DNA of 64,000 nt from Bradyrhizobium sp. 170 (GTDB lineage: Bacteria > Pseudomonadota > Alphaproteobacteria > Rhizobiales > Xanthobacteraceae), in the NCBI RefSeq assembly GCF_023101085.1, contig NZ_CP064703.1, positions 6,138,001 to 6,202,000 of the forward strand. The letters run 5' to 3'. The notes beneath the pieces are model-generated. The model was not told where the DNA came from. It worked only from the letters and a program-made list of their open reading frames with translations, and searched no databases. Positions within the stretch are counted from its first letter, which is position 1. Each line of letters starts with the position of its first letter. The translations under genes and the position numbers were made by a program. Positions 47,529 through 62,173 of the stretch are shown here, piece by piece.

Positions 47529-48494
47529 CTATTCGGGCTTGAAGCCGGAGGCCTTGATGACGGGTCCCCACAATTCGGAATCGGACTTCTGGATCCTTGA
47601 AAACTCTTCTGCCGATGTGCCTGTGGTCTGGACGCCCAGCGGCGTCAGCCGGTTCTTGAATTCGTCGGTGCGCACAGCTTCGACGACAGCCCGGTTCAAT
47701 TGCGCAACGACCGCGGCCGGCGTTTTGGCCGGGGCATAGATGCCATACCAGCCCTCGCCGCGAATGGCGTACCCGCTCTCCATAAACGTCGGCACTTCTG
47801 ATAGCGCCGGCGATCGCGCCAGGCCCGATGTCGCTAGGACGCGGATGCGTCCGGCCTTGTGGGCCTCGACCAGATCCTGAGTCGAGGTGAAGAAAAGCGG
47901 CAAGTGTCCGCCGATCAGGTCGGTAATGGCTTGCGGATTGCCTTTGTAGGCGACGTGACGAAGATCGAGGTTGGCGTGGCGCGCAAAGAGCACCGCAAAG
48001 AAGTGCGGCAGCGATCCGGCGGCCGGCGTACCATAAGCCGCCTGATCGGGATGGTTCTTCAACCAGTCAACCAGCTCCTTGAGGTTTTTGGCCGGCACGT
48101 TCGCGCCTACCGCGACGCCGAGATCGAAGGTCCCGACTTGCGAGATCGGCTGAAAATCCCGGACCGGATCGTAAGCCAAATTGTCATAGACGTGCGGGAA
48201 CAGCGCCATCGGCGCGATCGGCGTGAACAGCAAGACCGTGCCGTCCGCCGGCGCGTCCTTTACCGACTGGATGCCGAGGCGTCCGGCCGCGCCGGGCTTG
48301 TTCTCGACGATGACCGTCCGATTGAGCCGCACGCGCATGGATTCTGCGATCATCCGCAACGCCGTGTCGCCGACCCCGCCAGCCGGAAACGGCAGAACGA
48401 GCCGGATCGGGGATTCGCCGACCTGGGCCGCGGCATGATCGGCCATCAGGCCGAGCGCCAGTGTCAGTGCCAATGCAATTCGGATCGTGCGCAT
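47529..48494 (-). CDS. TctC/Bug-family periplasmic binding protein
   Basis: A 321-residue secreted protein. A signal peptide (RIALALTLALGLMADHAAA) precedes the Bug fold opening IRLVLPFPAGGVGDTALR. Such proteins bind tricarboxylates, other carboxylates or aromatic acids. No TctA/TctB membrane partners are nearby, as is common for orphan Bug proteins. It is divergent from a LysR regulator. Confidence 0.9.
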   Translation of the reverse strand: MRTIRIALALTLALGLMADHAAAQVGESPIRLVLPFPAGGVGDTALRMIAESMRVRLNRTVIVENKPGAAGRLGIQSVKDAPADGTVLLFTPIAPMALFPHVYDNLAYDPVRDFQPISQVGTFDLGVAVGANVPAKNLKELVDWLKNHPDQAAYGTPAAGSLPHFFAVLFARHANLDLRHVAYKGNPQAITDLIGGHLPLFFTSTQDLVEAHKAGRIRVLATSGLARSPALSEVPTFMESGYAIRGEGWYGIYAPAKTPAAVVAQLNRAVVEAVRTDEFKNRLTPLGVQTTGTSAEEFSRIQKSDSELWGPVIKASGFKPE

Positions 48495-52859: not shown

Positions 52860-54086
52860 CTATACGATCTTCTGCGCCTTCAGCGCTTCGACCTTCGCCT
52901 CGTCATAACCGATCGTCGCCAGCACGTCCTTGGTATCCGCGCCGAGCAGCGGCGGGGCGCGATAGTCCTTTACCGGGGTGCCGGAGAAGGTGATGGCATT
53001 GCGGATCAGCGACAGGTCGGGCTCCAGGGGATGATCGACCTTGACCTGCATGCCGCGCGACTGCACGTGGGGATCGTTGAACACCTGCGCGAAATCGTTG
53101 ATCGGACCTGAAGGCACGCCGGCCTTCTCCAGCTCGTCCAGCCAGTAGGCCACGGGCTTCTTCAGGAAGAGACCTGCGAAGATCGCCATGATTTCCTTGC
53201 CGTGGACGACACGGTCGTTGTTCTTGACGAAGCGCGGATCGGTCGCGAGCTCGGGCGCGCCGAGCACGGCGCAGGTGCGCTGGAACTGGCCGTCATTGCC
53301 GACCACCAGCATCAGCTCGCCATCGGTGCAGCGGAACACGCCGGCCGGCATGCCGCCATTGCCCCAGGTGCCGCGCCGCGGCGGGGTCTGGCCGTTGACG
53401 AGAAAGATCTGCGCGTAATGCGACAGCGAGGCGATCACGGTGTCGAACAGGCAGACGTCGACATGCTGCCCCTCCCCGCCATTGGCCTTGCGGTGATAGA
53501 GCGCCGCCAGAATGCCGATCGAGGAGTTCATGCCGGTCATGTAGTCGACGATGGAGGGGCCGACCTTCATCGGTCCCGCGCCAGGCTCGCCGTCGAGATG
53601 GCCAGTGACGCTCATCAAGCCGCCCATCGCCTGCAGGATCGCGTCGTACCCGGCGCGCGGCGCGTAGGGCCCGGTCTGGCCGAAGCCGGTTACGGAGCAA
53701 TAGATGATGCCGGGGTTGATGGCCTTGATCGATTCGTAATCCAGCCGGTAGCGCTTGAGGTCGCCGACCTTGTAATTCTCCATCATCACGTCGCAGGACT
53801 TTGCCAGATCACGGACGATGTCCTGCCCTTCCGGCGTCGCGATATTGACGGTGACCGATTTCTTGTTGCGGTTGGCGCAGATGTAGAACGAGTTGTTGTT
53901 GTTCGCCTTGCCGTCCGGGTCTTTCAGGTAAGGCGGGCCGAAGGCGCGGGCGTCGTCGCCGCCGCCGGGGCGTTCGATCTTGATCACCTCGGCGCCGAGA
54001 TCCGCCAGCATCTGCGCCGACAAGGGGCCTGCGAGCACCCGCGTCAGGTCGAGAATTTTGATGCCCGAAAGTGGCAGAGCCGACAT
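52860..54086 (-). CDS. CaiB/BaiF-family CoA-transferase
   Basis: A 408-residue family III CoA-transferase. GIKILDLTRVLAGPLSAQML and DLGAEVIKIERPGGGDDAR open the fold, and YDAILQAMGGLMSVTG includes the catalytic-Asp region. The enzyme moves CoA between carboxylic acids (oxalate, succinate, carnitine-type substrates). The ATG at 54,086 follows GGAGGAAG; the longer frame is not used. It is convergent with tarD; a role with tartrate or another dicarboxylate is only suggested by position. Confidence 0.92.
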   Translation of the reverse strand: MSALPLSGIKILDLTRVLAGPLSAQMLADLGAEVIKIERPGGGDDARAFGPPYLKDPDGKANNNNSFYICANRNKKSVTVNIATPEGQDIVRDLAKSCDVMMENYKVGDLKRYRLDYESIKAINPGIIYCSVTGFGQTGPYAPRAGYDAILQAMGGLMSVTGHLDGEPGAGPMKVGPSIVDYMTGMNSSIGILAALYHRKANGGEGQHVDVCLFDTVIASLSHYAQIFLVNGQTPPRRGTWGNGGMPAGVFRCTDGELMLVVGNDGQFQRTCAVLGAPELATDPRFVKNNDRVVHGKEIMAIFAGLFLKKPVAYWLDELEKAGVPSGPINDFAQVFNDPHVQSRGMQVKVDHPLEPDLSLIRNAITFSGTPVKDYRAPPLLGADTKDVLATIGYDEAKVEALKAQKIV

Positions 54087-54320
54087 GAACTTCCTCCGAA
54101 TTTTTTGGCGTGGTGGCGCGGGAACGTGTCCGGGCGCTGCGAAGCCAAGCCGATACACTATTTTATGTGGCTGAGCCCTGCATTAACGGCATGACGCCAT
54201 CCGTTCGCCGCCCGCTTTGCACGCCAGTGGTCGGACGAAGCGAAGGTTTCAGCGATCTCGCCGGGCAGCAGATGCGGCATTCCGGGCAAAGGGGCTGCCG
54301 GGACATCGCCCCAAAAGCAC

Positions 54321-54374: not shown

Positions 54375-56741
54375 TTACCTGTTGGTGCTGGCCTTGGCGC
54401 GGCTGGCGCGCCATTCCAGGAATTCGCGATAAAGGGGATCGCGTTCCTGCGGGGCCAGCGCTGCGGCCGGTGCAGCAACCGGCGCCGGCGCCGCCGGCGC
54501 GGCGCCTGATGCCGCGGCAGCGCCCGGGGGCAGCGGCATGTTGCGGTCGAGCCATTCCTGCGCCGCCTTGAAGCGGGTCCAGCCCGACACCGTCGCGCGT
54601 GGCGCCATTTCCTTCCACTTCGGATGGAACGGCGGACGCTGCAGCTGCGCGACCTTGTCGAACATGGTGTCCACCAAGAGCGCCAGGCGGCGGTAGCGAT
54701 CGCTGTTCGGCGCCCAGTTATACGACGCCAGCACGGCTTCGGCGGCGATCGTCTCCACGTAGCCACCCTCCGCAACGAGGCCCGGGTAGTCCGCCGAGCC
54801 AAGCTTGGAAGGCAGATACTCCTCTTGCAGCGGCTTGGCGTATTCGACCGGCACCAGATGCAGATTGCGGTCCTGGATCTGGTTCAGCCATTGCAACGGC
54901 TTGCCTTCGATCGCCACGATCGCGTCGACCTCACCCTTGCGCAGCATGTCCACCGCCAGCCGCGGCTCCTGATAGATCAGATGCGGCCTGATCCCGAGCC
55001 GGTCGAACACGTTGATCGCCGTCACGAAGGTCGAGCTGTCGGGCAAATCGACCACCACGGTCTTGCCGTCGAGATCCCGCATGCTGGTGATCGACCTCGG
55101 CGCCAGGACGTGCATCTCTTCGTTGAACATCTTGGCGACGTAGACGAACTGGTTGCGGATGTCCTTGGCGAAGTCCTTGCGGTCGAGATAGGACAGCGTG
55201 TCCTTGCGCACGATACCGGCATCGACGCCCCGCAGCAGCAGGATATCCGCCACCGCCTGCACCGATCCACGGCCCATCACAGGTAGGATCCGCAAATTGG
55301 TGCCGTTGTCGAGCACGGAGGCGAGATCGGCGCCGACCTGGGCGTAGGTAGAGCCGAACGAGCCGGTCATCAGGCTCACGGTGTTGGCGTTGAGCTGGTT
55401 CGCCAGATCGCGCTTGGTGGAGGTGCCGTACTTGAAGATGGTCTTGAAGGAATCGCTGACGGCGCCCGCATCGACGCCGCTTCGCACCGGGCCGAAGTGC
55501 TGCCATTGGCCGTTGGTGAAGCGCATCATCCGCATCTGTTCGATTGGCGCATGGTCGGACGGGCTGGTGTCGATCTTGATGCCCTGCACCATCATGGGAA
55601 GCTGGATACCCTTGAGCAGGCGGGCCTGCTTCATGATGTTTTCGCGCGAGAGGTCGTCGCCGCAGTTCTTCAGGACCTCGACCGTCAACCTGCCGACCAG
55701 ATAGCCGAGGACGGCCTGGCCGTTGGTCTTGCTCACGCTCGGGAGATAGCGCTGCATGAAGGCGCTCCATTCGCGGAACACCGCGTCGCCGGCCGCCGCC
55801 GCGTCTTCGCCCTCGAGCCTGTAAGCGGCCGACAACAGGCCTTCCGCATTTTGCGGGCCCGCCGGCTGAATCACGGCCGAGTACGAATTAGAGATCGAGG
55901 CGGCGAACTGTAGCGGCCTCCAACCGAGTTCGGCGGTTCGCTTGATCGCCATGATCGCGAATTTTGGCGTGGTGAACTCGATGAGGACGTCGGCGCCGGA
56001 GGCCTTGAGCTTGGCCATCTGCGCATCGATATTGGTGTCCGTGACCTTGTATGGAGCCTCGGCCACGATCGCCATCTTGCCACCCAGGCCGTCCTTCAGG
56101 CCCTTCAGGTATTCCTTGCCCATCCCATCCTCCTGATAGAGGACGGCGATCTTGCTGCGCGGATGGTTCTCCAGCAGATACTGCGCAAAAATTTGCGCTT
56201 CAGCGGTGTAGGTCGGCAAGAAGCCTATGGTCCAGGGAAACTCGTGCGGCTGGTCCCAGGCCGCCGCACCCGACAAGGCAAAAAGTTGCGGGACCTTTTT
56301 TGAGTTCAAATAGGGCTGGATCGCGGCGTTCGTGTTCGTGCCGATGGTCCCCAAGGCCAGGAGAACGTTGTCTTCCTCGACCAGCTTGCGGGTCATCGCC
56401 ATGGTTTTGGTGGGTTCGTAGGCGTCGTCATAGGATATCATATTGACCTTGCGGCCGTTGATCCCGCCTTCGGCGTTGACCTTGTCCAGATAGGCCGTGA
56501 TGGTCTTGGCGATAACGCCATAGGCGGAGGCCGGACCGGTATAGGGCGCGGTGTTGCCAATCCGGATCTCCCTGTCCCCCGGGGCCGCCAGGCCCTGCCC
56601 GAAAGCCGGCCCCGCCATCGCAGCAAGCACCAGTGCCGCGGCAGCGCTGCGCCGAGGCGCGGTGAAAAGCCGGCGCAGTGCGTCACGGGCCACAGACCCG
56701 GACAATTGCGCCGCCCAACGAGTGTCAATCAAAGCCCGCAT
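54375..56741 (-). CDS. Two-domain periplasmic binding protein: LivK-type fused to TAXI-type (copy A)
   Basis: A 788-residue secreted protein. A signal peptide with a long basic start (RRLFTAPRRSAAAALVLAAM, cleavage near AFG-QG) precedes a type I binding domain at about 55-420, as in LivK (IRIGNTAPYTGPASAYGVIA, VNAEGGINGRKV). A TAXI/TRAP-type II domain follows at about 450-730 (LMTGSFGSTYAQVGADLASV, RGVDAGIVRKDTL). An Ala/Pro linker and a short charged tail end it. No permease is adjacent. It is 331 bases downstream of copy B; their TAXI halves are nearly identical. GGGGGCTGGCAG precedes the ATG. Confidence 0.9.
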   Translation of the reverse strand: MRALIDTRWAAQLSGSVARDALRRLFTAPRRSAAAALVLAAMAGPAFGQGLAAPGDREIRIGNTAPYTGPASAYGVIAKTITAYLDKVNAEGGINGRKVNMISYDDAYEPTKTMAMTRKLVEEDNVLLALGTIGTNTNAAIQPYLNSKKVPQLFALSGAAAWDQPHEFPWTIGFLPTYTAEAQIFAQYLLENHPRSKIAVLYQEDGMGKEYLKGLKDGLGGKMAIVAEAPYKVTDTNIDAQMAKLKASGADVLIEFTTPKFAIMAIKRTAELGWRPLQFAASISNSYSAVIQPAGPQNAEGLLSAAYRLEGEDAAAAGDAVFREWSAFMQRYLPSVSKTNGQAVLGYLVGRLTVEVLKNCGDDLSRENIMKQARLLKGIQLPMMVQGIKIDTSPSDHAPIEQMRMMRFTNGQWQHFGPVRSGVDAGAVSDSFKTIFKYGTSTKRDLANQLNANTVSLMTGSFGSTYAQVGADLASVLDNGTNLRILPVMGRGSVQAVADILLLRGVDAGIVRKDTLSYLDRKDFAKDIRNQFVYVAKMFNEEMHVLAPRSITSMRDLDGKTVVVDLPDSSTFVTAINVFDRLGIRPHLIYQEPRLAVDMLRKGEVDAIVAIEGKPLQWLNQIQDRNLHLVPVEYAKPLQEEYLPSKLGSADYPGLVAEGGYVETIAAEAVLASYNWAPNSDRYRRLALLVDTMFDKVAQLQRPPFHPKWKEMAPRATVSGWTRFKAAQEWLDRNMPLPPGAAAASGAAPAAPAPVAAPAAALAPQERDPLYREFLEWRASRAKASTNR

Positions 56742-56795
56742 CTGCCAGCCCCCTGAGCAATATTCCTGTGCGATTTTTCGAGCAGCGAGAAGATA

Positions 56796-56847
56796 GCGTT
56801 TCAGCCCTACTCGCTAACATTGTGTCTCAATCGGATTGATTTTGTGT
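56796..56847. repeat. Upstream block conserved with copy B
   Basis: About 52 bases upstream of copy A match 59,493-59,545 upstream of copy B with a few changes, sharing TCGGATTGATTTTGTG, AATGTGTCT (ATTGTGTCT here) and CCCTACTCGC. The block lies 55-106 bases before the start and is probably a shared promoter or operator. Confidence 0.55.
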
Positions 56848-57014
56848 CATGGCCAGTCGTTTCGCGGACAACGGTTAGTCGATCGTGCGTTCTGCCGCAA
56901 CAATGCTGGACATTATCGTTACCAAATCTGGACTCGGTTGCGTTCGTGAATACTGATTCGTCTTATGGTTGCAAAAACGATACGCATTGCGCCGTCCCTC
57001 AATCCCAAAAGCAC

Positions 57015-57040
57015 GACGGCCCGCCGAAAAGCGGGCCGTC
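57015..57040 (-). terminator. Terminator of the second LivK-TAXI fusion gene
   Basis: GACGGCCCGC and its complement form a perfect 10-base stem with a CGAAAA loop, 32 bases after the stop. On the minus strand GTGCTTTTGGG follows. It separates the two tandem copies. Confidence 0.85.
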
Positions 57041-57072
57041 TTGTGGTCAAATCGTGTTATCGGCTGGCCTGA

Positions 57073-59433
57073 TTACCTGTTGGTGCTGGCCTTGGCGCGG
57101 CTGGCGCGCCATTCCAGGAACTCGCGATACAGGGGATCCTGCGGGGCAAGTGCGGCGGCCGGTGCAGCAACAACCGGCGCCGGCGCGGTGCCCGATGCCG
57201 ACGACATGGCCGCGCCCGCCGGCAACGGCATGTTGCGGTCGAGCCATTCCTGCGCGGACTTGAAGCGGGTCCAGCCCGACACCGTCGCGCGTGGCGCCAT
57301 TTCCTTCCACTTCGGATGGAACGGCGGACGCTGCAGCTGCGCGACCTTGTCGAACATGGTGTCCACCAAAAGCGACAGGCGGCGGTAGCGATCGCTGTTC
57401 GGCGCCCAGTTATACGAGGCCAGCACGGCCTCGGCCGCAATCGTCTCCACCGAGCCGCCATCCGCCACCAGGTTCGGGTAGTCCGCCGACGAAAGCTTGG
57501 ACGGCAGATATTCCTCCTGCAGCGGCTTGGCATAGTCGACCGGCACCAGATGCAGGTTGCGGTCCTGGATCTGGTTCAGCCATTGCAACGGCTTGCCTTC
57601 GATCGCCACGATCGCGTCGACCTCGCCCTTGCGCAGCATGTCCACCGCCAGCCGCGGCTCCTGATAGATCAGATGCGGCCTGATCCCGAGCCGGTCGAAT
57701 ACATTGATCGCCGTCACGAAGGTAGAGCTGTCAGGCAAATCGACCACCACGGTCTTGCCGTCGAGATCCCGCATGCTGGTGATCGACCTCGGCGCCAGGA
57801 CGTGCATTTCCTCGTTGAACATCTTGGCGACGTAGACAAACTGATTGCGGATGTCCTTGGCGAAGTCCTTGCGGTCGAGATAGGACAGCGTGTCCTTGCG
57901 CACGATTCCGGCGTCGACGCCCCGCAGCAACAGGATATCCGACACCGCCTGCACCGATCCTCGGCCCATTACCGGCAGGATCCGCAGCGCCGTGCCGTTG
58001 TCGAGCACGGAGGCGAGATCGGCGCCGACCTGGGCGTAGGTAGAGCCGAACGAGCCGGTCATCAGGCTCACGGTGTTGGCGTTGAGTTGGTTCGCCAGAT
58101 CGCGCTTGGTGGCGGTGCCGTACTTGAAGAGTGTCTTGAAGGAATCGCTGACGGTGCCGGGATCGATGCCGCTTCGCACCGGCCCAAAGAACTGCCAGTG
58201 GCCGCCCGTGAAGCGCATCATCCGCATCTGCTCGATCGTCGCGTGGTCGCTCGCGCTGGTATTGATCTGGATGCCCGGCACCATCATGGGAATCTGCAGG
58301 CCCTTGATCGAGCGGGCCTGCTTCATGATGTTTTCGCGCGAGAAGTCGTCGCCGCAGTTCTTCAGGACCTCGATAATGAGCCTGGAGTTCAGATAGCCGT
58401 AGACGGCCTGGCCGTTCGACTTGCTGACGCTCGGGACATAGCGCTCCATGAAGGCGCTCCATTCGCGGAACGCCGCGGGGCCGGCGCTGGCCGAATCCTC
58501 GCCCTCCAGCCGGTACATGGCCGACATAATGCCTTCGGCGTTTTCCACGCCCGCCGGCACCATTACGGCCGACACCGATTCAGACACCGAGGCGAGGAAA
58601 TGCACCGGCTTCCAGCCGAGTTCGGCATTTCGCTTGATCGCCATGGTGGCGAATTTCGGCGTGGTGAATTGCATGAAGATGTCGGCGCCCGAGGCCTTGA
58701 GCTTGGCGATCTGGGCGTCGATGGAGGTGTCCGTCACCTTGTACGGCGCCTCGGCCACGATCGGAACCTTGCCGCCGAGGCCGTCCTTCAGGCCCTTGAC
58801 GTAGTCCTTGCCGAAACCGTCGTCCTGATAGAGCACCGCGATCTTGCCGCGCGGATGGTTCTCCAGGATATAATGCGAATAGATGTGAGCTTCGGTCTGG
58901 TAGCTGGGCAGGAAGCCCATGGTCCAGGGAAACTCGCGCGGCTGGTCCCACATCGAGGCGCCCGAGGCGACGAAGAGCTGCGGGATCTTCTTCGCGTTCA
59001 AATAGGGGTGGACCGCCTGGCTGGTGTTGGTGCCGAGGCTCGCCAGGATAAAGAGAACGTTGTCTTCCTCGACGAGCTTGCGGGTCGCCTCCATCGTCTT
59101 GGTCGGATTGTAGGCGTCGTCATAGGAAATGAAATTGATCCTGCGGCCCTTGATGCCGCCCTCGGCGTTGACCTTGTCGAAATAGGCCGCCATGACCTTG
59201 CCGATCACGCCATAGGCGGAAGCCGGACCGGTATAGGGCATGCCGATCCGGATCTCGTTTGCCCCCGGGGCCGCCGCCTGGCCCTGCCCGAAAGCCGGCG
59301 CCGCCATCGCGGCCAGCATCAGCGCCGTTGCGGCGTTGCGCCGAGGCGCGGTGAAAAGCCGGCGCATGGCCTCTCCTGTCCGAAACCGGGACAGTTGCTC
59401 CATTCGCGGACGAGCGATTCCGATAGCTCCCAT
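57073..59433 (-). CDS. Two-domain periplasmic binding protein: LivK-type fused to TAXI-type (copy B)
   Basis: A 786-residue paralogue of copy A with the same order: signal peptide (APRRNAATALMLAAMAAPAFG), LivK-type domain to about 415, TAXI-type domain to about 730, Ala/Pro linker and an identical last 21 residues. Roughly a quarter of residues differ in the LivK half, while the TAXI half has only scattered changes. The LivK domain keeps LVEEDNVLF and VTDTSIDAQIAKLKASGAD. ACAGGGGGGA precedes the ATG. A cyclase gene lies upstream on the same strand. Function is unknown. Confidence 0.9.
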   Translation of the reverse strand: MGAIGIARPRMEQLSRFRTGEAMRRLFTAPRRNAATALMLAAMAAPAFGQGQAAAPGANEIRIGMPYTGPASAYGVIGKVMAAYFDKVNAEGGIKGRRINFISYDDAYNPTKTMEATRKLVEEDNVLFILASLGTNTSQAVHPYLNAKKIPQLFVASGASMWDQPREFPWTMGFLPSYQTEAHIYSHYILENHPRGKIAVLYQDDGFGKDYVKGLKDGLGGKVPIVAEAPYKVTDTSIDAQIAKLKASGADIFMQFTTPKFATMAIKRNAELGWKPVHFLASVSESVSAVMVPAGVENAEGIMSAMYRLEGEDSASAGPAAFREWSAFMERYVPSVSKSNGQAVYGYLNSRLIIEVLKNCGDDFSRENIMKQARSIKGLQIPMMVPGIQINTSASDHATIEQMRMMRFTGGHWQFFGPVRSGIDPGTVSDSFKTLFKYGTATKRDLANQLNANTVSLMTGSFGSTYAQVGADLASVLDNGTALRILPVMGRGSVQAVSDILLLRGVDAGIVRKDTLSYLDRKDFAKDIRNQFVYVAKMFNEEMHVLAPRSITSMRDLDGKTVVVDLPDSSTFVTAINVFDRLGIRPHLIYQEPRLAVDMLRKGEVDAIVAIEGKPLQWLNQIQDRNLHLVPVDYAKPLQEEYLPSKLSSADYPNLVADGGSVETIAAEAVLASYNWAPNSDRYRRLSLLVDTMFDKVAQLQRPPFHPKWKEMAPRATVSGWTRFKSAQEWLDRNMPLPAGAAMSSASGTAPAPVVAAPAAALAPQDPLYREFLEWRASRAKASTNR

Positions 59434-59816: not shown

Positions 59817-61943
59817 TCATCCGCTCCCGGAACCAAGGCGAGTTGCCTCCAAATCCTGGGCTCGATATCTGCTCAACGCTGCCGCTTCATCGCAGATCGA
59901 TCGGTGATAGCGGGCGACGCCGTCCAGGGGATACCTGGCGAGGAACAGGGCCAATTCGGTTTCTGCGACAGCCGGAGGACCATTGCGAAGCGCCACATAC
60001 ACCGTTTCCCATTCACTGCAGAATCTCAGCTCGTCGACGCCGGCCGAGGCGGTCTCATCTCGCAGTTCATAGATATCGAACGCCTCGGCGAATCCCTTGG
60101 GGGTGATCCGGTCGACACTGCGAAGGCAAAATTGCGGGCCCACGCGCTCCCTCAACGCAGAGCTGATGAGGATCGAGGTTCCGTAATGCTTGTTGAGCCC
60201 TTCGAGGCGCGCCGCGAGATTAACCGTCGCGCCGAGCGCGGTGTAATTCATGCGGTCTTCTGACCCGATATTGCCGACGACGGCCTCGCCGGTGTGCAGG
60301 CCCATCCGCGTACGATACGCCGGCCATCCCTCCTGCTCGAACTCGGCATTGAGGCGATCATTGGCGCGTTGAAGCGCGAGCGCGGCAACACAAGCATTGG
60401 CCGCGTGATCCGGATCGTCTGCCGGCGCGTTCCAGATCGCCATGATGGCGTCGCCGATGAATTTATCGACGGTGCCGGCATGGATCATGATCTCGTGCGA
60501 CATCGCGGCAAAGTATCGCGAGGTGTATTTCATGACCTGCGTCGGGTCGGCCTTCTCGGTGATCTCCGTGAAATTCACCACGTCGGAAAACAGCAGTGTG
60601 ACTTCCCGACGCGTGCCACCGAGTTGCAGCGGAGTCCCGGTTTCAATCAACTTCTCTACCAGCCGGCGCGGCACGAAGTGCGAAAATGTCTCGGTGACGG
60701 TGCGCATGGTCGACACCGACCGGCCGAGTTCATCGATCTCGCGGATGAGCGAACGCACCGGCGGAGCCGCGGACGGTTCGAACCTCTGAATTCGATCGGT
60801 CTCCCCGGCGAGAGCGCGCAGCGAACGGGACAGCAGCGAGCCGATCAGAAACACGATCGGCACCATCAACGCGACGAAACCCAGCGTAACGGCAAACAGC
60901 CGCCGACGCTCGGAGAGGATACTGGCGAAGAACTCATCGACCGGCGCCACCACCGCCACACGCAGATTGGCCGGACCTGATTTGGGGATGGTCTGGAACG
61001 CCGCGGCATACAGCCGGCCGCGCGGATCGTAAAAGAACTGCTCGGCGATTCCATTCTCGCGCCACCCGCGGATCGCCTTGAGAACACCCGACATATCGGT
61101 CTCACGCAGGCGTGGAATCGTGCCCGAAACCTCCCTTCCGAGCATTTCAGACATCCGGGGATGGGCCAGAATGCGATCGTCATCATCAAACAGGAAGGCG
61201 ACGCCGGAGGCGGTCAGGTTCTCCTTCTTCAACACCTCCTGGGTCACATCAAGCAGAAGGTCGCCCGCGCTCACGCCGCTCCTGCCCTGTTTCAGCGCGG
61301 ACTGGACGGTGTAGCCCTGCTTTCCGGTTGCGAAGAAAACATAGGGCCCGGTCAGCCAACTGCCATCGCGGCGAGCGCCGTCCTTGTACCAGGGGCGCTC
61401 GCGTGGATCGTAGTCGAGAGGCCCCGGTAGCTCCCTGATCGTTTCGAGCCGGTCGGATAGAAACAGCCTCCTCGATTTGGCCTGGGCCGGGTCAGACCTT
61501 GAAATCACGACCATCCGGAACGCAGCCTGTTCGGGCGCCTCCAGCCTCGCGCGCGTTTCCCGTCCCGCGCCATCGATAGCGTCCATCTCGATGAACGAGC
61601 CGTCGTCGTAGGCTACGTACAGGTTGAAGAGCTGGTTGTTGTTCTTCAGCATGGCAGCGAGCAGCGCGACCAGCCGCGGATTATCGTCGATATCCGCGGA
61701 CTGGATCGGCGGCAGCGCATTCAATATCTCGAGATTGTCCCGCACCAGCTTCAATTGCGAGCCGATCCGGTCCGCCGATAGTTCGGCGACCTTGCCGATG
61801 AACTGGCTGGCGGCCGTCTCCGTCACCGCGGCGATGCGCTGAAAACTGAGATAGACCAGCGTCAGGCCGATAACGAGCACAATCGCGACAAACAGCGCGA
61901 TGATGGAGGTCTTGAACCCTAGCTGTACGCCTCCGCTTTTCAT
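59817..61943 (-). CDS. Membrane-bound class III adenylate/guanylate cyclase with Cache sensor
   Basis: A 708-residue receptor. A first membrane helix at about 10-32 (SIIALFVAIVLVIGLTLVYL) is followed by a periplasmic double-Cache-type region, a second helix near 370-390 (GFVALMVPIVFLIGSLLSRS), a HAMP-like linker and a class III cyclase domain from about 450. The metal Asps (LLFSDVVNFTEIT and DKFIGDAIMAIW), the Lys-Thr base pair (DKFIGD, NYTALG) and Asn/Arg of VNLAARLEG are kept, so it looks active. The ATG at 61,943 is preferred to a TTG ten codons earlier. It precedes the fusion-protein genes on the same strand. Confidence 0.9.
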   Translation of the reverse strand: MKSGGVQLGFKTSIIALFVAIVLVIGLTLVYLSFQRIAAVTETAASQFIGKVAELSADRIGSQLKLVRDNLEILNALPPIQSADIDDNPRLVALLAAMLKNNNQLFNLYVAYDDGSFIEMDAIDGAGRETRARLEAPEQAAFRMVVISRSDPAQAKSRRLFLSDRLETIRELPGPLDYDPRERPWYKDGARRDGSWLTGPYVFFATGKQGYTVQSALKQGRSGVSAGDLLLDVTQEVLKKENLTASGVAFLFDDDDRILAHPRMSEMLGREVSGTIPRLRETDMSGVLKAIRGWRENGIAEQFFYDPRGRLYAAAFQTIPKSGPANLRVAVVAPVDEFFASILSERRRLFAVTLGFVALMVPIVFLIGSLLSRSLRALAGETDRIQRFEPSAAPPVRSLIREIDELGRSVSTMRTVTETFSHFVPRRLVEKLIETGTPLQLGGTRREVTLLFSDVVNFTEITEKADPTQVMKYTSRYFAAMSHEIMIHAGTVDKFIGDAIMAIWNAPADDPDHAANACVAALALQRANDRLNAEFEQEGWPAYRTRMGLHTGEAVVGNIGSEDRMNYTALGATVNLAARLEGLNKHYGTSILISSALRERVGPQFCLRSVDRITPKGFAEAFDIYELRDETASAGVDELRFCSEWETVYVALRNGPPAVAETELALFLARYPLDGVARYHRSICDEAAALSRYRAQDLEATRLGSGSG

Positions 61944-61969
61944 CTTCGGCTCACGATCTATTGCCCCAC

Positions 61970-62173
61970 TCAAAACGGATTGACGTAATAGATGATCGCC
62001 ACTTGTCGCAGCAGCACCTTGCGGATCACATGCGTCGCCTTGACGTGCTCGGTGAAAATCGCGGCTTCGCCGGTGGCGCCGGCCGGCAATGCGCGCGCGA
62101 ACCCGGCGTCATCCAGCTTGATCCGCACGACGAACGGAAGCGACTGAATGATAGCGCGCGTCATTCTGCGCAA
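61970..62173 (-). pseudogene. Remnant of an HlyD-family secretion protein C-terminus
   Basis: The frame reads [19 protein letters not shown] and HVIRKVLLRQVAIIYYVNPF. This matches the last part of HlyD/membrane-fusion proteins, whose ends usually read LPAGA..AIYT..IRK.LLRM.SW.NYV. Everything upstream of this tail is gone and it abuts a sulfatase fragment. It has no proper start. Confidence 0.55.

Follow-up and report, generated by a model that had tools for sequence, protein, structure and literature searches.

Fusions of LivK-like and TAXI-like binding proteins in Bradyrhizobium: variable N-terminal halves, homogenised TAXI halves and a possible tie to Sel1-like-repeat proteins

Background

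Binding proteins are usually annotated as transporter parts. In the bacterial order to which Bradyrhizobium belongs, ExoR is a soluble, periplasmic Sel1-like-repeat (SLR) regulator of ExoS-ChvI, and we know of no binding protein that acts as its partner. In the ectodomain of ionotropic glutamate receptors, a type I binding domain precedes a type II domain. In LivJ, a binding protein of the Peripla_BP_6 family, we take Ser79, Thr102 and Glu226 to form the amino-acid pocket, with Glu226 as the ligand of the amino group, and Tyr150 is presumably a further pocket residue. The TAXI-type binding proteins of TRAP transporters are represented by TtGluBP (1US4/1US5) and VcGluP (8S4J), and Gln93 of VcGluP is reported to be critical for glutamate (PMC11574862). 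A TAXI protein with another partner is BP0403 (PMC12344293), which is elongated, carries an N-terminal part composed of a PilO-like region, a helical dimerisation region and a lipoprotein anchor, and works with the GltS symporter.

Here we analysed a window of 64,000 nucleotides from Bradyrhizobium sp. 170, which contains two tandem genes whose products join a LivK-like type I domain to a TAXI-like type II domain. The C-terminal halves of these fusions and their relatives match the TAXI-type TRAP binding proteins by profile; the fusions differ from them in that no TRAP membrane gene is found nearby, in their LxxxFxxW extension and in the SLR gene that neighbours their relatives. As in BP0403, the TAXI domain ends a longer chain, TRAP permease genes are absent and there is a tie to another membrane protein, but the N-terminal part of the fusions is a complete LivK-like binding protein (Peripla_BP_6) instead of a PilO-like region, and the gene linked in the fusion relatives encodes an SLR protein and not a GltS symporter. 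The N half belongs to the fold family of LivJ and LivK, from which it is set apart by its junction to a TAXI domain, by a serine in the position that aligns with Glu226 and by the lack of a LivHM-type permease gene in the window. ExoR offers a precedent for a periplasmic SLR protein in signalling, whereas in most of the SLR proteins described here a membrane helix is predicted and the repeat domain is short. The fusions may also be compared with the ionotropic glutamate receptor, with which they share the domain order, but they have neither channel nor membrane segment, and the resemblance would be at most an architectural parallel.

Two tandem fusion genes

The features of the two genes are as follows.

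54375..56741, minus strand: fusion gene copy 2, 788 residues, open reading frame with both Pfam domains
55509..56570, minus strand: copy 2, N-terminal Peripla_BP_6 domain, residues 58-411, Pfam
54594..55370, minus strand: copy 2, TAXI-like domain, residues 458-716, Pfam match
57073..59433, minus strand: fusion gene copy 1, 786 residues, open reading frame with both Pfam domains
58204..59253, minus strand: copy 1, N-terminal Peripla_BP_6 (LivK-like, type I) domain, residues 61-410, Pfam
57241..58164, minus strand: copy 1, TAXI-like domain with leading segment, residues about 424-731, from the NMT1_3 match (458-715), the alignment and the profile
57282..58132 (approximate), minus strand: copy 1, stretch homogenised with copy 2, from nucleotide identity windows and trees
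57109..57132, minus strand: copy 1, C-terminal peptide LxxxFxxW, residues 768-775, conserved in the alignment

The initial annotation had described two large open reading frames, each with a LivK-like and a TAXI-like half, and had given the second assignment as open to refutation by domain searches. Both assignments were borne out. Peripla_BP_6 (PF13458) scored 177.7 and 174 bits in the two reading frames (gathering cut-off 31.7) and NMT1_3 (PF16868) scored 38.8 and 39.2 bits (gathering cut-off 27), while the NCBIfam model TRAP_TAXI (TIGR02122) matched both with E values of 2.3e-13 and 7.8e-14, yet under its curated cut-off. The window C half as a lone query found no significant match in the PDB (best E 0.16); a profile of 20 rows, built from this half and its solo relatives, had the TAXI structures 1us4, 8u79 and 8s4j as top PDB matches (E 1e-14 to 3e-13) and was aligned by hhalign to four NMT1_3 proteins of the same genome with a probability of 98.9 (E 2.1e-17). 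On these sequence profiles we assign a TAXI-type fold to the second half. A chance join of two domains was ruled out, since all 120 homologues listed, the best of 1020, have both Pfam domains. The N termini, judged by eye, resemble signal peptides and suggest that both proteins are secreted, and the true start of copy 1 may be Met23. The LxxxFxxW peptide of copy 1 is preceded by a Pro/Ala-rich linker and is common to solo TAXI relatives.

The claim that no membrane component of either kind is adjacent also holds for the window. DctM, the TRAP membrane subunit, has 21 matches in the genome and none within 300 kb of the fusion pair, and BPD_transp_2, the LivHM-type permease, has 62 matches in the genome and none inside the window. 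A Liv-type or TRAP permease next door was therefore ruled out.

Distribution of the fusion

The homologue search yielded 1020 homologues among 8000 scored candidates. The fusion (match at E 1e-150 or better) is present in 23 of 391 family genomes, a set that includes the genome of the window, and in one of 47 genera. All 21 fusion loci of a scan of named genomes, which used a single protein as query and reaches close relatives only, belong to Bradyrhizobium. Genomes across the genus carry one, two or three copies (three in two genomes), and one with a single copy (G343) has a TAXI-like fragment upstream of it. A Peripla_BP_6-TAXI fusion was not described in the literature that we covered, in which subscription papers are thinly represented, in agreement with the earlier impression that no family with this architecture was known. 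Existing annotations, where named, read 'ABC transporter substrate-binding protein' or 'TRAP transporter TAXI family solute receptor'.

The two halves of the fusion have different histories

To compare the proteins half by half, 33 fusion genes from 24 loci were used. Tandem copies differ in their N halves and are nearly alike in their TAXI halves. The two copies of the window are 74.2% identical in amino acids and 81.7% in nucleotides in their N halves, against 96.4% and 94.5% in their TAXI halves. The homogenised stretch shows 87-97% nucleotide identity in windows of 150, compared with 73-89% in the rest of the gene upstream, and in the scanned pairs the copies become more alike close to the domain border. 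The TAXI halves of genome G235 are 98.7% identical in DNA, and those of copies 1 and 3 of G346 are 98.2% identical. Copy-1 N halves form a supported clade (100/99), and the N halves keep two old types; for the C halves the copy-1 clade is rejected (p-AU 1.6e-6), and copies from the same genome can pair in their tree, for example both copies of G235 and copies 1 and 3 of G346 (100/99 each). The columns diagnostic of type number 26 of 390 in the N half and 0 of 308 in the C half.

In 9/9 paralogue pairs computed, from 11 within-genome pairs, the C halves have diverged less at silent sites than the N halves, as in G235 (0.051 against 0.423); six orthologue pairs show no such reduction in the C half. 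This points to gene conversion or a similar exchange, beyond selection alone, and it looks as if the TAXI halves are homogenised inside genomes in this way. Both halves are under purifying selection in the six orthologue pairs, with dN/dS of 0.15-0.37 for the N half and 0.04-0.11 for the C half. That the TAXI half evolves in concert is a new point, absent from the initial annotation. The fusion offers a natural case in which one protein half diversifies and inter-copy exchange keeps the other constant, and the constant half points to where a shared partner should bind.

Relatives and pocket residues of each half

The closest solo paralogues of the N half are 51-53% identical to it, and three of them lie beside Liv-type permease genes. 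In a MAFFT alignment of low identity, LivJ Ser79 is replaced by Thr, Thr102 by Ser or Ala and Glu226 by Ser, and the serine at the Glu226 position makes an amino-acid ligand seem less likely for this half. Residue 207, one of the 26 type-diagnostic positions, aligns with LivJ Tyr150. Three tandem LivK-like genes, which belong to the closest solo relatives of this half, stand between two Liv-type permease sets at L094:7798-11818.

Relatives of the TAXI half (E 1e-30 or better) were detected in 67 of 297 order genomes, representing 38 of 122 genera, and in 8 of 240 class-level genomes, that of the window included. One solo relative, 51% identical, is located at 103 kb of the same chromosome. In a quick tree the seven sampled fusion TAXIs form one clade (100), which sits in a ten-row clade (100) whose three other members are SLR-linked solo TAXIs, also of Bradyrhizobium. 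The LxxxFxxW peptide, behind a variable linker, is invariant in an alignment of 49 rows (A1), and of the 20 rows of a wider set (A2), 18 have it unchanged, one has an altered form and one lacks it. Of the VcGluP residues tested in PMC11574862, Tyr45, Ser75 and Glu125 have aligned counterparts that do not vary in A1, and these positions are kept, whereas Gln93 aligns with Arg512, likewise invariant in A1; the counterparts of Tyr200 and Met201 are Ala and Ile. Since this pocket is only partly kept, the TAXI half probably binds something other than simply glutamate.

Three proteins of the TAXI clade, in two genomes, are fused to a Cu/Zn superoxide dismutase domain (Sod_Cu, above the Pfam cut-off), which indicates that periplasmic domains joined this TAXI type more than once:

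L186:5802-7478, TAXI-Sod_Cu fusion
L187:1474-3075, TAXI-Sod_Cu fusion
L190:6024-7628, TAXI-Sod_Cu fusion

A TAXI-type protein with a long C-terminal extension was found at L192:198-2456, and its neighbour (L192:3861-5864) has two copies of the Sel1-like-repeat domain. The idea that this extension is another binding protein was dropped, with SBP_bac_3 at only E 0.022 and an empty PDB search.

SLR genes are linked to the TAXI clade

The solo TAXI gene at 103 kb is flanked by a gene whose product combines a single hydrophobic segment with a domain of Sel1-like repeats at its C-terminal end; proteins of this kind are referred to here as SLR proteins. A profile of 16 SLR proteins matches Sel1-repeat structures (8sxq, E 6.1e-24), and the single members tested fall under the Pfam Sel1 cut-off. 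One membrane-helix-like segment was predicted in 15 of 19 called SLR proteins and none in four, their start sites being unsure; in the member from L160 the hydrophobic segment may be a signal peptide. Read by eye, the repeats would face the periplasm. A recognisable output domain was not found in the SLR members annotated.

An SLR gene is near 28 of the 43 TAXI-type genes examined, on the same strand in 28/28 cases and within about 200 bp in 26, and one of the 28 neighbours, at 7.0 Mb of the window genome, is an SLR fragment only. Where both flanks extend over at least 2.5 kb (31 TAXI genes), 25 have an SLR neighbour; six of the 15 TAXI genes without one fall in this group. Of the loci examined, 20 were among the best order-level matches and 20 were picked for long frames or for same-genus/order kinship. 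Genes in the fetched loci were called with a simple gene caller, and the 19 seed proteins of the SLR profile include 11 from loci also counted in L145-L164. An independent class-level draw of six further genomes, which had no part in building the profile, gave an SLR neighbour in four and none in two, and the control loci contained no SLR gene in 185 kb.

Two side observations concern such pairs. The window genome (G000) has a further TAXI-clade gene at 7.008 Mb (L113:13501-14646), which has an internal stop and looks degraded, with a Sel1-repeat fragment (L113:11877-12137) about 1.4 kb from it. At L097:3983-6987 a second NMT1_3 protein and a PhoD-type phosphatase gene lie near a solo TAXI-Sel1 pair.

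The fusions themselves fall into two situations. The fusion is immediately preceded by an SLR gene in 5/5 loci of lineage B, for which the genome names point to photosynthetic Bradyrhizobium, and at L091 (6/6, L086-L091), and no adjacent SLR gene was found in the 18 loci of the window's group plus L085. In 17 of these 18 genomes an orphan SLR gene is present elsewhere, in the window genome at 2.61 Mb. All 17 genomes with a window-type fusion, out of 391, carry the orphan SLR gene at full length (83-100% identical), and none at that similarity was detected in the other 374 family genomes. The TAXI gene beside the orphan SLR gene is intact in one of the 17 (G346), a remnant in three and undetected within the 1.5-kb flank in 13. 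The orphan SLR gene is under purifying selection, with dN/dS of 0.17-0.32 in 12 pairs, among them one with G346; four of the 16 pairs, those with L210, L213, L214 and L220, were left out.

On a simple reading, the orphan SLR protein lost its TAXI partner and the fusion filled that place. This is contradicted by G298 (L085), whose fusion has neither an adjacent SLR gene nor the orphan type. We also rejected the 17/17 co-occurrence as strong proof, because it largely reflects shared ancestry and comes down to two changes on the rpoB tree, and to one pair on supported branches, with no significance. That tree comprises 21 genomes, including 12 of the 17 carriers, and 31 of 391 genomes, five of them carriers, received no score in the rpoB search; five genomes with neither gene are nested among the carriers with moderate support.

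Other neighbours of the fusions

Two further genes flank the pair in the window.

52860..54158, minus strand: family III CoA-transferase gene, downstream of the fusions, domain call
59817-61973, minus strand: adenylate/guanylate cyclase with a Cache-like region (Cache slightly below the Pfam cut-off), immediately upstream of the fusions

The cyclase was rejected as a conserved signalling partner, since its cluster occurs only at the window and is missing from the other fusion loci fetched. A CoA-transferase gene is downstream of the fusion on the same strand, although not always next to it, in 18/18 loci of the window's group plus L085 (L069-L085 in addition to the window). In lineage B the fusion is preceded in the five loci by AhpC-like, carboxymuconolactone-decarboxylase-like and SLR genes, and in 5/5 loci a cluster on the other strand, a few kb away, encodes an NMT1-type binding protein, an ABC ATPase and a BPD_transp_1 permease, families that were called from one member each. 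L069 has a BPD_transp_1 permease and an ATPase gene 4-5 kb upstream of the fusion, and L091 an MFS gene nearby. No importer common to all fusion groups was seen among the annotated neighbours, nor was gltS found among them. In the neighbourhoods of homologues, suggested earlier as the place to look for permeases or sensors, SLR genes stand beside the lineage B and L091 fusions, and ABC importers lie near those of lineage B and L069.

Interpretation

The fusion, the single clade of its TAXI halves, the variable head on a homogenised adaptor, the TAXI-SLR linkage and the kept orphan SLR gene are the observations to be explained. A variable head, a constant adaptor and a linked membrane protein that shows no known features of a transporter suggest sensing or scaffolding. 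Our main reading, to which we give a probability of about 0.4, is that variable sensing heads sit on a shared TAXI adaptor that docks to the SLR membrane protein; the docking, the ligands, the membrane topology and the output are what we infer. Each fusion protein would act as a soluble receptor in the periplasm and contain two binding modules: a LivK-like one at the N terminus as the variable sensing head and a TAXI one at the C terminus as the common adaptor, possibly with a ligand of its own. The heads of copies 1 and 2 probably bind different small organic, perhaps aromatic, acids. The TAXI module would dock by a shared surface, perhaps via the LxxxFxxW peptide, onto the SLR domain of a protein anchored in the inner membrane by one helix, which may relay or scaffold a response and is not a known transporter part. 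In the lineage of the window, where no SLR gene stands beside the fusion any more, the orphan SLR protein (2.61 Mb in this genome) would serve as partner in trans.

The earlier guess of a double-sensing or ligand-handover protein rather than a transporter subunit is upheld in part. A sensor gains indirect support from the linkage of the TAXI clade to SLR genes (28/43, and 6/6 other fusion loci), and the lack of an SLR neighbour in the window's group and the NMT1-type importer near 5/5 lineage B loci speak against it; no observation pointed to a handover of ligand between the halves. More broadly, and still more tentatively, these genes may belong to a two-part periplasmic signalling system of alphaproteobacteria, in which TAXI proteins that left transport serve as ligand-gated adaptors for an inner-membrane Sel1-repeat protein and to which Bradyrhizobium adds interchangeable LivK-like heads. 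If so, several ligands would feed one output and gene conversion would keep the adaptor half uniform. If the TAXI-SLR link is functional, many of the existing transporter annotations in Hyphomicrobiales mislead.

The alternative that survives best, which we find somewhat less likely than the main reading, is a dual-specificity binding protein that serves transport in trans, with the LivK-like half feeding a Liv-type permease and the TAXI half acting as a tether or feeding a distant TRAP or other permease. The 62 BPD_transp_2 and 21 DctM matches of the genome would provide candidates, and the CoA-transferase that follows the fusion in 18/18 loci fits the uptake of a catabolised acid. It is above all kept alive by three of the closest N-type paralogues, which stand in tandem beside Liv-type permease and ATPase genes, and by the ABC importers near the lineage B fusions (on the other strand) and L069. 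These importers, however, differ between fusion groups, that of lineage B has its own NMT1 binding protein, and the window is without a nearby Liv-type or TRAP permease; the TAXI clade is linked to SLR genes, and the homogenised half is the TAXI one, not the half expected to dock to a Liv permease.

It is unlikely that the TAXI and SLR proteins form an envelope scaffold or stress complex (polarity, exopolysaccharide or redox) in which the folds are mostly structural and the fusion adds surface. The AhpC-like and carboxymuconolactone-decarboxylase-like genes that, with the SLR gene, precede the lineage B fusions would suit such a role, as would the Sod_Cu domains on other clade members, but the TAXI pocket is partly kept (Tyr, Ser and Glu positions align with VcGluP, Gln93 aligns with Arg) and a type-diagnostic position of the N half aligns with what is presumably a pocket residue of LivJ. 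An ordinary fused binding protein with no special function, whose neighbour patterns reflect clade history, would agree with the restriction to one genus, the many single-copy genomes and an SLR co-occurrence compatible with shared ancestry, and is improbable in view of the purifying selection on both halves and the retention of one, two or three copies across the genus.

Besides the fusions, the window contains a third binding-protein class, beside a divergent LysR gene:

47529-48494, minus strand: TctC-type (tripartite tricarboxylate) binding protein gene
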